Shown here in pieces: positions 1,216 to 4,767 of a stretch of 30,388 nt of DNA. Position 1 is the stretch's first letter. The number at the start of each line of letters is the position of its first letter. Source of the DNA: a virus; IMG/VR virus record IMGVR_UViG_3300021957_000188, positions 1 through 30,388 of that record; one strand, 5' to 3'. The translations under genes and the position numbers were made by a program. The notes under the pieces were generated by a model. It was not told the origin of the DNA and searched no databases. It was given only the letters and a program-made list of their open reading frames with translations.

Positions 1216-1649
1216 ACGCTCCCGAGTACATCATCCTGCATACGCTGGCGTTCGACGGAGAAGCGGACATCGAGCGGGTGCGGCGCTGGCATCTCGACAG
1301 GGGCTGGAACGATGTCGGATACCATTACCTGATCCGCAGAAACGGTACGTTTCAGATGGGCAGGGACGAGGATACGGAAGGCGCTCACACGATGGGCTAC
1401 AACAAGCGCAGCATCGGCATTGCCTTTGAGGGTCATGGAGATCACGAGATGTGGACGCTGCCGCAACTGTTGTGCGCCGTCAAGATGTGCGACCGCCTGA
1501 CGGACGAGTACGGCATACCGCCACACAACATACTTGGACACCGGGAGACAGGAGCCAAGAAAACCTGCCCCGGCAGCAAGATCGACATGGACGCATTTCG
1601 CGCCCTGTTCTTTATGCTACTACCAGAGGACGAATGGCAAAACGATTAA
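1212..1649 (+). CDS. N-acetylmuramoyl-L-alanine amidase endolysin (Amidase_2 / T7-lysozyme type)
   Basis: A 145-residue protein close in size to T7 lysozyme. It cuts the amide bond between muramic acid and L-alanine in peptidoglycan to release progeny. Zinc ligands expected for this family are visible: His10 in I-I-L-H-T, His110 in I-L-G-H-R-E and Cys119 in K-T-C-P-G. The accessory Tyr37 (V-G-Y-H-Y) and Lys117 correspond to the catalytic Tyr and Lys of T7 lysozyme. There is no signal peptide and no separate wall-binding domain, so release depends on the holin just upstream. The ATG at 1212 overlaps the holin stop, which fixes the start. The 3' end overlaps the next gene by 16 bases. Confidence 0.93.
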   Translation: MNAPEYIILHTLAFDGEADIERVRRWHLDRGWNDVGYHYLIRRNGTFQMGRDEDTEGAHTMGYNKRSIGIAFEGHGDHEMWTLPQLLCAVKMCDRLTDEYGIPPHNILGHRETGAKKTCPGSKIDMDAFRALFFMLLPEDEWQND

Positions 1650-2176
1650 AAATAGCCGACCTAAAGTTCGACCCGCAGAACGCTCGCGTTCGAACGGCGA
1701 AGGGGGAGGCGATGATACAAGAGTCGCTCCGGCAGGTTGGCGCGGCTCGGTCCATCGTCATTGACGAGGATGGGACGATTCTTGCAGGAAACGGGACGGT
1801 CGAAGCCGCAGGACAGGTTGGCATTGAAAACGTGGTGATCGTAGAAGCCTCTGGGGATGAGATCATCGCGGTCAAGCGGGTTGGGCTGACGGACGAGCAG
1901 AAGAAGAAACTGGCGTACTACGACAACCGCACCGGAGACGAAGCCGAGTGGGATATGGAGCAGGTGGCTCGTGACCTTCTGGGCGGGTATGAGTTTCTCG
2001 ATGAGTTGTTTGAAGAACTTAAAATGCCCGAAGAAATGGAAGTTGGTTCAGAAGATCAGTCTCACTTGCTGGATGATTCTTTTGAAATAATTGTTACTTG
2101 CTCTGATGAGTCAGATCAAGCAAAATTGTTGGAGGAGTTTGAACAAAGAGGGTACGAATGTCGAGCAATTTTTTAG
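1634..2176 (+). CDS. ParB-like (ParB/Srx superfamily) N-terminal domain protein
   Basis: A 180-residue protein. Residues 1-110 resemble the ParB/sulfiredoxin N-terminal domain: L-K-F-D-P-Q-N-A-R near residue 9 corresponds to the usual N-P-R box, and I-L-A-G-N-G-T-V-E-A to the G-H-R nucleotide-binding box. Such phage proteins are often encoded beside DNA methylases or other base-modifying enzymes. A separate C-terminal piece of about 40 residues (I-I-V-T-C-S-D-E-S-D then G-Y-E-C-R) follows an acidic linker. The DNA is visibly richer in A and T from about base 2030, so the tail domain belongs in composition with the next gene, whose start it overlaps by 19 bases. There is no helix-turn-helix or plasmid-partition neighbour, so DNA segregation is unlikely. 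Confidence 0.8.
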   Translation: MAKRLKIADLKFDPQNARVRTAKGEAMIQESLRQVGAARSIVIDEDGTILAGNGTVEAAGQVGIENVVIVEASGDEIIAVKRVGLTDEQKKKLAYYDNRTGDEAEWDMEQVARDLLGGYEFLDELFEELKMPEEMEVGSEDQSHLLDDSFEIIVTCSDESDQAKLLEEFEQRGYECRAIF

Positions 2177-3273
2177 AACTTAAGACAAACATAGAGCGAA
2201 CGCCTCGAATCGCACAACTGGAAGGTATTTTTGATGTGCCCAAAGCATCAGAGTCTGTCGTACGTATTCAAAAAATACCAGACACGCTTGGCGAGTGGAC
2301 TGTCGGTTTGATAGTTGGTCATTCCGGATCGGGCAAAACAAGCGTAGCCAGAGAAAAGTGGGGAGATTGTATTGTTGATGAATACGAATGGCATCAACAC
2401 AAATCTGTGGTAGATTCTTTTGATCCCAATTTGTCAATGAAAGCAGTAACGGGCGCTTTGTCGAGCGTTGGTTTTTCTTCGCCCCCATCATGGATGAGAC
2501 CATACAAGGTTTTGTCAAATGGAGAAAAGTTTAGAGCAAACATGGCACGGGCGCTGCTCGACGAGCGCGAATTAATTGTCATAGATGAGTTCACATCCGT
2601 AGTTGATCGACAGGTTGCAAAGATTGCATCAACAGCAATACAAAAAGCATTTAGGCGAAAAGGTAAAAAATTGGTGGCTGTTTCTTGCCACTACGATATT
2701 GCAGAATGGCTGCAACCTGATTGGACTTATGAACCATCAACCGGCACGCTTGCGCGTGACTGCCTTCAACGACCACAAATTGAAATCACCATACAGCAGG
2801 TTGATCGTTCAGCGTGGCAACTATTCAAAAAGCATCACTATTTGAGCAGCGATATTAATAAGGCAGCACGATGTTTTGTTGGGTTTGTTTGGGGTCAACC
2901 CGCCGCATTTATGGCTGTTTTGCCTTTTCCACACGCACATAGAAGCGGCTGGCGCGATCATAGAACTGTTTGTCTGCCTGATTTTCAAGGCGCTGGCATA
3001 GGTAACGCCATGAACGCCGCAATATGCTCAATATATAGAGCAACTGGGAAGCCCGTGTTTTCAACCACCTCCCACCCTGCCATGATATACAGTCGGGCAA
3101 AATCTGAGATGTGGAAAATGAACAGAAAGCCATCGTACACAAGTAGAGACACAAAAAGCATCTCACTCAACAAATCAAGAGCAAAAAACAGGAAAACAGC
3201 CGGTTTTGAGTATGTGGGCAAGCCTGACCAGCAGTCAGCAATCGGCTTTGGTCTCAAAAATGTAACGGTATAA
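2158..3273 (+). CDS. ABC-type ATPase fused to GNAT/Mom-like acyltransferase (COG2401-like)
   Basis: A 371-residue two-domain protein. Residues 1-215 form an ABC-type ATPase: Walker A G-H-S-G-S-G-K-T at 54-61, signature L-S-N-G-E at 119-123 followed by R-A-N-M-A-R-A-L, Walker B L-I-V-I-D-E at 139-144, and a switch-like C-H-Y-D-I-A-E near 180. There are no membrane partners, so it is not a transporter. Residues from about 225 form a GNAT-like domain with H-H-Y-L-S, A-V-L-P-F-P-H, R-D-H-R-T-V-C-L-P and the acyl-CoA loop D-F-Q-G-A-G-I-G. The architecture matches the COG described as an ABC-type ATPase fused to a predicted acetyltransferase. Phage Mu Mom, which modifies adenine, also has a GNAT-like fold, so DNA or protein acylation against host restriction is plausible. 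The gene is AT-richer than the late arm and coupled to the ParB-like gene. Confidence 0.85.
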   Translation: MSSNFLELKTNIERTPRIAQLEGIFDVPKASESVVRIQKIPDTLGEWTVGLIVGHSGSGKTSVAREKWGDCIVDEYEWHQHKSVVDSFDPNLSMKAVTGALSSVGFSSPPSWMRPYKVLSNGEKFRANMARALLDERELIVIDEFTSVVDRQVAKIASTAIQKAFRRKGKKLVAVSCHYDIAEWLQPDWTYEPSTGTLARDCLQRPQIEITIQQVDRSAWQLFKKHHYLSSDINKAARCFVGFVWGQPAAFMAVLPFPHAHRSGWRDHRTVCLPDFQGAGIGNAMNAAICSIYRATGKPVFSTTSHPAMIYSRAKSEMWKMNRKPSYTSRDTKSISLNKSRAKNRKTAGFEYVGKPDQQSAIGFGLKNVTV

Positions 3274-3275
3274 AA

Positions 3276-3623
3276 ATGGCATACGAGAAAGAACAATTTA
3301 TTAAAGCAATCGCCGGAAGCGGTGGCTATGTCTCGTTAATAGCAGACAGGATTGGTTGTGCGCCAAAAACCGTATATGATTGGATTAACAAAGACGAAGA
3401 TGTCGCAGAAGCGATAAAGCGGGAAAAAATTAAGCAAGTCGATTTTGCCGAAGGCAAGTTGCAGTCTCTTATTAAACAAGAAAACCCGACCGCCATCATC
3501 TTCTATTTGAAAACGCAGGGCAAGGACCGAGGCTACTACGAACATCGTACGCAGGACATTACCTCTGGCAATCAGCCGATAACGATTAACATGGTTCCTG
3601 TTGACCCCGACCATGACGGTTGA
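3276..3623 (+). CDS. terS: Terminase small subunit (helix-turn-helix)
   Basis: A 115-residue protein whose N-terminal half holds a helix-turn-helix (G-G-Y-V-S-L-I-A-D-R-I-G-C then K-T-V-Y-D-W-I-N) as in small terminases that recognise viral DNA. The centre contains E-N-P-T-A-I-I-F-Y-L-K-T-Q-G, a stretch common in small terminase subunits and thought to lie in the oligomerisation region. It is followed by, and overlaps by 11 bases, the large terminase, the usual arrangement. The ATG lies two bases after the preceding stop. The first two-thirds keep the AT-richer composition of the ABC-GNAT gene, which suggests they arrived as one block. Confidence 0.87.
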   Translation: MAYEKEQFIKAIAGSGGYVSLIADRIGCAPKTVYDWINKDEDVAEAIKREKIKQVDFAEGKLQSLIKQENPTAIIFYLKTQGKDRGYYEHRTQDITSGNQPITINMVPVDPDHDG

Positions 3624-4767
3624 TGCTCAATACAACCGCGCCTATACACCTTTTTTTACCAGCCAAGAAAGGTATACCGTCCTATTTGGCGGCGCAGGCT
3701 CTGGCAAATCCTACTCGGTAGCACAGAAACTTGTCCTGCGTTGCCTTGCCGATCCTGCCGAGCGGATACTGGTCATCCGTAACGTGTACCGCACCTGCCG
3801 AGAATCCACGTTCCGTCTGCTGATAGAGGTTGCAGGCACCTACGGCATCACGGCGTCAGCCAACCGCTCCGACCTGTCCATAACCTTTCCGAACGGGGCG
3901 CAGATTATCCACGCCGGACTGGATGACCCGGAGAAACTCAAGTCCATCGCAGGCATCACCTCCGTCTGGATAGAGGAAGCAAGCGAGGTCAAAGAGGATG
4001 CTTTCCGGCAGGTGGACCTGCGACTGCGTGGCGATGTGCCGACGTACAAGCAAGTAACGCTGACGCTCAACCCGACCGACTCGCGGCTCTGGGTGCGGCG
4101 GTGGCTCGACGAAAACCCTGACATCTTCGTCCTGCGGACTACGTGGCGCGATAACGCTTTCCTCGACAAGCAGTATATCGACGTACTCAAGTCGCTGCCA
4201 GAGGATCTGAGAGCCATCTACGAGCGCGGGGAGTGGGGCGAAGCGCTTAAAGGTGTCATCTTCCCTAATTGGAAAACGTACAACGAACACCGTGAGCCGG
4301 ACTTCTACGGCATCGACTTTGGCTACAACAGCCCGTCTGCCGTGGTAGCCGTCACCGTGACCGATCCTGATGTCTACGTCCGTGAGGTAATTTATCAGAG
4401 CGGTCTAACAAACTCTGATCTAATTGCTGAGTTAAAGAAAGCGGTCAGCAACAAAAACCTGCCAATTTACTGCGATGCAGCCGAACCGGACCGGATCGAA
4501 GAATTGATCCGCGAAGGATTGCAGGCGTATAAAGCCGACAAGAGCGTAAAAGATGGTATCGACTTTGTAAAACGTTATAACGTCAACGTCCATGCAGGGT
4601 CGCAAAACTTACAAAACGAACTACGGGAATACCGATGGGACGAGGACCGGAAGTCGGGAGAACTGAAGGACGTTCCTCTAAAGCGGCACGACCACGCCGT
4701 TGATGCCATGCGGTATGCCATCTATACGCACCTGAAAGGCGCAACTAACACTTGGGGAGTCTGGTAA
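3613..4767 (+). CDS. terL: Terminase large subunit (PBSX/Terminase_3-like)
   Basis: A 384-residue DNA-packaging motor. The N-terminal ATPase has Walker A G-G-A-G-S-G-K-S at 26-33, Walker B with catalytic glutamates V-W-I-E-E-A at 118-123 and the coupling motif T-L-N-P-T. The C-terminal RNase-H-like nuclease has acidic residues in Y-G-I-D-F-G-Y, I-Y-C-D-A-A-E-P-D and D-H-A-V-D-A-M-R-Y-A, all expected for headful or cos nucleases. It converts ATP hydrolysis into DNA translocation through the portal, encoded immediately downstream (TAATG overlap). ATG 3613 is favoured; a TTG at 3601 would add four residues. Length is slightly short but within the family. Confidence 0.96.
   Translation: MTVDAQYNRAYTPFFTSQERYTVLFGGAGSGKSYSVAQKLVLRCLADPAERILVIRNVYRTCRESTFRLLIEVAGTYGITASANRSDLSITFPNGAQIIHAGLDDPEKLKSIAGITSVWIEEASEVKEDAFRQVDLRLRGDVPTYKQVTLTLNPTDSRLWVRRWLDENPDIFVLRTTWRDNAFLDKQYIDVLKSLPEDLRAIYERGEWGEALKGVIFPNWKTYNEHREPDFYGIDFGYNSPSAVVAVTVTDPDVYVREVIYQSGLTNSDLIAELKKAVSNKNLPIYCDAAEPDRIEELIREGLQAYKADKSVKDGIDFVKRYNVNVHAGSQNLQNELREYRWDEDRKSGELKDVPLKRHDHAVDAMRYAIYTHLKGATNTWGVW

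Follow-up and report, generated by a model that had tools for sequence, protein, structure and literature searches.

A ParB-like gene overlapping a predicted ABC ATPase-GNAT acyltransferase gene ahead of phage packaging genes: a probable DNA-base modification module

What might a phage do with an ATPase fused to an acetyltransferase-like domain, encoded by a gene that starts inside a ParB-like gene and lies just ahead of the packaging genes? Such a pair occurs in the DNA considered here, a virus record of 30,388 bases (the whole stretch is called the window below), where it sits upstream of the terminase genes. A sequence-only reading had proposed a Mom-like, ATP-driven module that acylates DNA bases or a host protein, probably against restriction, by a chemistry taken to be undescribed.

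The gene pair and its protein

The relevant features of the window are these:

1212-1649, Amidase_2 endolysin gene, first of the mapped series and followed by the ParB-like gene
1634-2176, plus strand, ParB/Srx-like gene, 180 aa (ORF; phrog_620, E 6e-22)
2000-3600, no strand, low-G+C block holding the ParB tail, the ABC-GNAT gene and most of the small terminase gene
2158-2176, plus strand, overlap of both reading frames, 19 nt (from the sequence)
2158-3273, plus strand, ABC-GNAT fusion, 371 aa, ATG start (ORF; phrog_11143, E 3e-112)
2158-2772, plus strand, ABC-type ATPase domain, residues 1-205 (AlphaFold2 residues 3-204 on ABC NBDs, Z about 14)
2317-2340, plus strand, Walker A GHSGSGKT, residues 54-61 (G54, S56, G57, G59 and K60 invariant in 236 relatives)
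2512-2526, plus strand, ABC signature LSNGE, residues 119-123 (L119, S120 and G122 invariant, n=236)
2572-2610, plus strand, Walker B LIVIDE and D-loop SVVDR, residues 139-151 (D143, E144, S147, D150 and R151 invariant, n=236)
2689-2691, plus strand, H-loop histidine H178 (invariant, n=236)
2773-3222, plus strand, GNAT domain, residues 206-355 (GNAT-only model pLDDT 92, RimI/Naa50-like fold, Z about 13)
2833-2847, plus strand, HHYLS, residues 226-230, predicted active-site element (Y228 invariant, n=236; H227 in 204/236)
2962-3003, plus strand, GNAT motif A, R269 to Q277-G-A-G-I-G282, predicted CoA pyrophosphate loop (QxxGxG)
3109-3204, plus strand, basic C-terminal segment, residues 318-349, candidate nucleic-acid-binding tail
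3276-3623, plus strand, small terminase-like gene directly downstream of ABC-GNAT (phrog_309, E 3e-9)
3601-4767, plus strand, large terminase gene (PF04466, E 1e-42)

Portal and then head genes come next. The position before packaging described by the sequence-only reading is borne out, with the small terminase gene starting at 3276 and the large one at 3601. Its 19-base overlap is exact, and the motifs it named in the 371-residue protein (GHSGSGKT from residue 54, LSNGE from 119, LIVIDE from 139, HHYLS from 226 and DFQGAGIG from 275) are where it placed them. The interval it drew, 2030-3273, ends correctly with the ABC-GNAT gene, but its start falls inside the ParB-like gene, whose ATG is at 1634.

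The ABC-GNAT ORF is not a chance one: 75 phage records are matched by tblastn, its catalytic residues are conserved, and dN/dS is low. For both it and the ParB-like gene, dN/dS is 0.03-0.07 against relatives at 85-96% identity, and on these codon comparisons both genes are under purifying selection. G+C content is about 37-46% across 2000-3600 (with one interval at 52%) and mostly 55-60% in the flanks; since this block takes in the ParB tail, the ABC-GNAT gene and the greater part of the small terminase gene, joint acquisition is suggested, and the three were probably acquired as one block. The drop is sharp, and its upstream edge lies within the ParB-like gene, past the conserved core. The position of this edge suggests recombination between a ParB core and a tail plus ABC-GNAT.

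By sequence, the ATPase part matches PF00005 (E 1e-6). It has every hallmark of the ABC superfamily, both in its motifs (Walker A, LSxGE, Walker B with its catalytic Glu, D-loop and H-loop) and in its modeled NBD fold. The GNAT-like domain said to be fused to it is recovered by sequence (PF00583, E 0.0016), and structure agrees: in an AlphaFold2 model built with 89 relatives (pLDDT 94.6, pTM 0.89), residues 206-355 superpose on GNATs with Z 13.7. The GNAT superfamily's Q/RxxGxG/A CoA loop is present in addition to the fold (QGAGIG, 277-282); within motif A, R269, P274 and G278 are invariant in the 236 relatives and Q277 is kept in 233 of them, and W319, further on, is invariant as well. Averaged over 169 relatives, the C-terminal segment carries a net charge of +19 per 100 aa, vs +3.4 for the whole protein. 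Because the residues of both domains are conserved, both ATPase activity and CoA-dependent acyl transfer are predicted for ABC-GNAT.

Family, ParB partner and neighborhoods

The protein belongs to phrog_11143 (residues 6-359), to which no function is assigned, and is 37% identical across 97% of its length to QAX98348.1, a protein of AsFcp_2. The latter has been given as an example of an ABC-ATPase/GNAT family predicted to carry out DNA acyl-modification (PMC7824862), and, according to the passages of PMC7824862 on this family, Iyer et al. (2013) had predicted that a GNAT coupled to an ABC ATPase puts an uncharacterized acyl modification on a DNA base. The ABC-GNAT match found in phage PX29 is PX29p085, which “presumably modifies DNA, unknown base” (PMC8056088). 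By its sequence, the window pair is a member of this published family of predicted DNA-modification proteins. The idea of DNA acylation is therefore not itself new, and the earlier view of it as undescribed is not supported; demonstrated chemistry for any member is reported neither in PMC8056088 nor in PMC7824862, as far as their passages on the family go. What is added here to those accounts is two exact slot swaps, a quantified coupling to ParB together with a fusion, and a formyltransferase clade.

Relatives turned up in both sets of contigs scanned, over 595 among the viral ones and 452 among those from genomes, the family extending over phages of Actinobacteria, Firmicutes, Proteobacteria, Bacteroidetes and Spirochaetes and over prophages of Planctomycetes. 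A terminase gene lies within 3.5 kb downstream of ABC-GNAT in at least 70 of 159 loci and upstream in 3, these counts being lower bounds because the terminase seeds were four single sequences. Members remote from packaging genes occur in PX29, pT24 and Nonlabens. Some records call for correction: QAX98348.1 is assigned in PMC7824862 to Tenacibaculum pT24, although the accession is actually from Aeromonas phage AsFcp_2, and pT24 carries its own, apparently frame-split, copy (L011). ORF024 of Enterococcus phage 9184 (L023:4031-4861), annotated as a DNA polymerase, matches the GNAT part of the family.

The ParB-like/Srx identity given to the upstream gene holds: in addition to phrog_620 it matches phrog_723 (2e-12), and its relatives match Pfam ParB_N (PF02195), which the window copy itself does not at E 1. 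The G-x-x-R phosphate-binding motif kept in the family consensus (iaGh.r..aa) reads AGNGTVEAA in the window, with T for R. At its C-terminus the window protein ends in the tail EIIVTCSDESDQAKLLEEFEQRGYECRAIF, a motif retained in ABC-GNAT partners (alignment consensus of 188 partners), and the ATG of ABC-GNAT is placed within the conserved Glu-Cys codons of this tail. The overlap is exactly 22 nt in 70 loci and 19 nt in 11. Co-conservation of the pair, a check proposed earlier, is found: in 157 of the 184 loci a ParB-like gene precedes ABC-GNAT by no more than 700 nt (several of the others are cut by a contig end), a count biased to close relatives because loci were picked by similarity to the queries, and one Gemmataceae bacterium contig (L116:5257-7092) has a natural single-gene ParB-ABC-GNAT fusion. 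Even where ABC and GNAT are separate adjacent genes, as in the Firmicutes phages P335, Javan141 and unk162, they still stand behind ParB. The branches of PX29, pT24, Vibrio, Nonlabens and Porphyromonas have no ParB, which makes it an accessory and not a requirement.

ParB-like genes also precede other modification genes. That of Microbacterium phage Antuna (L190:969-2121) overlaps a true Mom gene by 8 nt, an arrangement paralleling the ParB/ABC-GNAT pair of the window. Microbacterium phage Gina (L016:2953-5152) combines a ParB-like gene with a TAGT-like glycosyltransferase (a distant relative) and a UDP-glucose dehydrogenase, likely one more DNA modification cassette coupled to ParB. Serratia phage eta, with modified guanine and a ParB homologue, was set aside, having no stated link to the ABC-GNAT family, as was a PADLOC mad3 match (1e-9, 62 residues around the ABC signature), which is generic ABC similarity.

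Two other neighbors recur. An ASCH-domain gene, usually convergent, stands beside ABC-GNAT in 27 loci (for example L100:1771-2202, L109:1981-2424 and L002:5702-6160, all on the minus strand); gp89 of Jace, called a helix-turn-helix protein, is actually ASCH. YqfB-type ASCH proteins hydrolyse N4-acetylcytidine, and a role as eraser or reader was considered and downgraded: ASCH occurs in 147 phage records, nearly all lacking ABC-GNAT, and the closest solved relatives are TRIP4. A gene for PanD (aspartate decarboxylase) is found in 5 loci, directly downstream of ABC-GNAT in 4 (L002:4598-5023, L093:1796-2143, L121:7205-7495 and L123:1508-1891). Rhodococcus phage Jace combines ParB, ABC-GNAT and PanD. 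PanD is known to be activated by a GNAT (PanZ); here it might provide beta-alanine, tailor an acyl group, or itself be what the GNAT domain activates, five loci being too few to build on.

Slot swaps, Mom and a formyltransferase clade

Two unrelated phage groups place ABC-GNAT in the slot of a recognized modification gene. Ten Porphyromonas gingivalis transposable phages have a common terminal tail gene (83-100% identity), behind which come ABC-GNAT plus a formyltransferase in five (006a, 007a, 008a, 009a and 011a) and Mom in four (012a-015a; PF25680, 2e-55), so that the two are mutually exclusive in this slot, 5 vs 4; phage 010a has room for neither. Between phage007a and phage013a, the DNA alignment resumes on either side of the swap, up to the phage end. 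Aeromonas phages PX29 and Aeh1 differ by a single gap with continuous alignment on both sides, holding ABC-GNAT only in PX29 and a TAGT glycosyltransferase (PF20691, 3.6e-44) plus a small ORF in Aeh1; the flanking proteins, two per side, are 73-87% identical. The gene thus trades places with recognized DNA-base modification enzymes, which is circumstantial but specific evidence for DNA as the substrate. Caution is in order: morons differing in function also occupy common slots, and slot and neighborhood evidence is circumstantial. PX29, moreover, has both ABC-GNAT (L273:4641-5819) and Mom (L188:532-1416) at separate places, AsFcp_2 also carries both, and the two are consequently not simply interchangeable everywhere.

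Is ABC-GNAT then a Mom? The link to Mom drawn by the sequence-only reading survives in its functional sense, through the P. gingivalis replacement, and fails in its phylogenetic one. The window protein has no match to PF25680 at E up to 1 (Mu Mom scores 2e-75), and two hhalign runs against six Mom proteins gave probabilities of 0.1-0.2%. The structural comparison proposed earlier did find a GNAT, but one that, among the matches listed, is nearest to RimI, Naa50 and other ordinary GNATs such as 1y9k, with Mom no specific neighbor: Mom 8bv8 is not among the best 50 structural matches listed, an absence that does not speak for a different fold, and a Mom model ranked 45 in a BFVD fold search (E 3.7e-4). 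With Pfam, hhalign and fold searches giving no specific link, homology to Mom was rejected. Where the GNAT fold begins, both have an HHY/HYS motif at the same position; the QxxGxG CoA loop of ABC-GNAT is absent from the Mom alignment. ABC-GNAT is not a Mom, then, though it may work like one.

One deep, fully supported clade bears on the acyl group: in it a Formyl_trans_N gene overlaps ABC-GNAT or lies directly behind it in 62 of 66 assessable loci (coupled examples are L018:1823-2473, L013:4568-5185, L020:4523-4996 and L024:3698-4186). Conversely, all 18 of 18 phage records with a clearly similar formyltransferase also carry ABC-GNAT. ParB is found in 44 of 67 formyltransferase loci; Gordonia phage BiggityBass has all three genes, Pseudomonas phage Komp_PAO1_1 ABC-GNAT and the formyltransferase. 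The formyltransferase is annotated as a purine-synthesis gene or phosphoribosylglycinamide formyltransferase (phrog_9240), or as a tRNA-methyltransferase. Among solved proteins it comes closest to the N-terminal domain of ALDH1L1 (E 1e-27, vs 1e-16 for amino-sugar and Met-tRNA formyltransferases); the catalytic His and Asp of the N-H-D triad are kept in 67/67, its Asn (two positions ahead of the His) in 0/67. ALDH1L1 moves a formyl group from 10-formyl-THF to a phosphopantetheine thiol (PMC8748788), and by this likeness the phage enzyme would make formyl-CoA or an equivalent for the GNAT. By analogy, the donor in this clade is most likely a formyl thioester derived from 10-formyl-tetrahydrofolate, which suggests formyl-CoA feeding DNA formylation; alternatively, the formyltransferase formylates an amine already on the base. 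The window has no formyltransferase partner and its copy lies outside the clade, so the enzyme there probably draws on an acyl-CoA of the host, for example acetyl-CoA.

Mechanism, rival readings and known systems

Modification of DNA against restriction is the most likely role for the pair, as the sequence-only reading had it, on the strength of the slot swaps, the ParB pairing and the published prediction. Stated more fully, the module is probably an ATP-dependent acyl-CoA:DNA-base acyltransferase with a ParB accessory, serving anti-restriction; the substrate, this role, the ATP-gating and the part played by ParB are what we infer. In the manner of other ABC NBDs, ABC-GNAT would dimerize on ATP through its Walker A and signature motifs; it would grip DNA with its basic C-terminal segment helping, and would spend ATP on bringing a base to the GNAT domain. 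This domain would bind acyl-CoA by the conserved QxxGxG loop and acylate an exocyclic amine of the base, at adenine N6 or cytosine N4. The ParB-like protein may be a nucleotide- or DNA-binding accessory directing or licensing the modification, and modified phage DNA, once packaged, would escape host restriction.

For DNA acylation there are the slot swaps, the ParB pairing and fusion, and ParB ahead of Mom or a glycosyltransferase elsewhere; it is also favored by catalytic conservation, the basic tail, formyltransferase coupling, terminase proximity and an independent published prediction. Against it, the modeled GNAT fold is nearest, among the matches listed, to protein and small-molecule acetyltransferases and not to Mom, some members lack ParB, and PX29 and AsFcp_2 hold Mom too. 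That the nearest solved folds are the protein N-acetyltransferases RimI and Naa50 invites another interpretation, in which a protein is acylated (for instance the RNA polymerase of the host, a protein of the nucleoid, or one that takes part in restriction or defense), much as Rac, a GNAT of phiKMV-like phages, acts on RNA polymerase (PMC7824862). Rac-like hijackers, however, need no ATPase, and a protein target leaves unexplained the replacement of Mom and TAGT, the ParB partner and fusion, and the formyltransferase coupling; it is considered unlikely. A tRNA, nucleotide or small-molecule target, whether of a GNAT toxin attacking aminoacyl-tRNA or of a sugar or amine N-acyltransferase working with the formyltransferase in the way of sugar N-formylation, is distinctly improbable: GNAT toxins such as AtaT are among the structural matches and Met-tRNA and amino-sugar formyltransferases are related to the partner gene, but there is no antitoxin-like partner, the formyltransferase is nearer ALDH1L1 and lacks the triad Asn throughout, and ParB and the slots favor DNA.

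Could the protein instead be an ATP-driven accessory of DNA handling or packaging, its GNAT fold non-catalytic or CoA-sensing? ABC ATPases are common in DNA metabolism and many loci put the gene before the terminase genes, but such a role fits poorly with the strong conservation of the CoA loop and HHY motif, with the PX29, pT24 and Nonlabens copies far from packaging genes, and with split versions that retain GNAT as a gene of its own, and we give it very little credence.

If acylation of DNA is the right reading, CoA-carried acyl groups, and perhaps folate formyl groups, join the chemistry by which phages hide their DNA. It is a more tentative and rather doubtful proposition that a previously undescribed chemistry is at hand, in which an ABC-GNAT N-acylates DNA bases at the expense of ATP and the formyltransferase clade has a two-enzyme route from 10-formyl-THF via formyl-CoA to an N-formylated base. 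On that view, genes annotated “phosphoribosylglycinamide formyltransferase” or “tRNA-methyltransferase” would belong to DNA modification and not to metabolism. Two natural allele swaps and a near-obligate formyltransferase make the 2013 prediction directly testable, and the formyltransferase names a candidate donor group.

Among known systems, the published ABC-GNAT family has the same domain order and the same predicted function as the window protein; the window copy has an overlapping ParB gene, whereas the Aeromonas copies have none. Phage Mu Mom resembles ABC-GNAT in its GNAT fold and in being a late-expressed phage DNA modification enzyme, but has no ATPase. COG2401, named by the sequence-only reading, is an archaeal group that joins an ABC ATPase to an acetyltransferase. 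TAGT (PF20691), which occupies the ABC-GNAT slot in Aeh1 and has a distant relative behind the ParB-like gene of Gina, differs in its unrelated fold and its chemistry, sugar transfer. The formyl-removing domain of ALDH1L1 is the best solved relative of one clade's partner gene, although the phage formyltransferase stands free beside the GNAT and has no carrier domain. TmcA/NAT10, an ATP-using NTPase-GNAT fusion that acetylates the exocyclic amine of RNA cytidine, matches ABC-GNAT by profile at E 0.5-0.8, weakly enough to make this an analogy and not whole-protein homology; its ATPase is helicase-like and its substrate RNA, whereas the ATPase of the window protein is of the ABC type.
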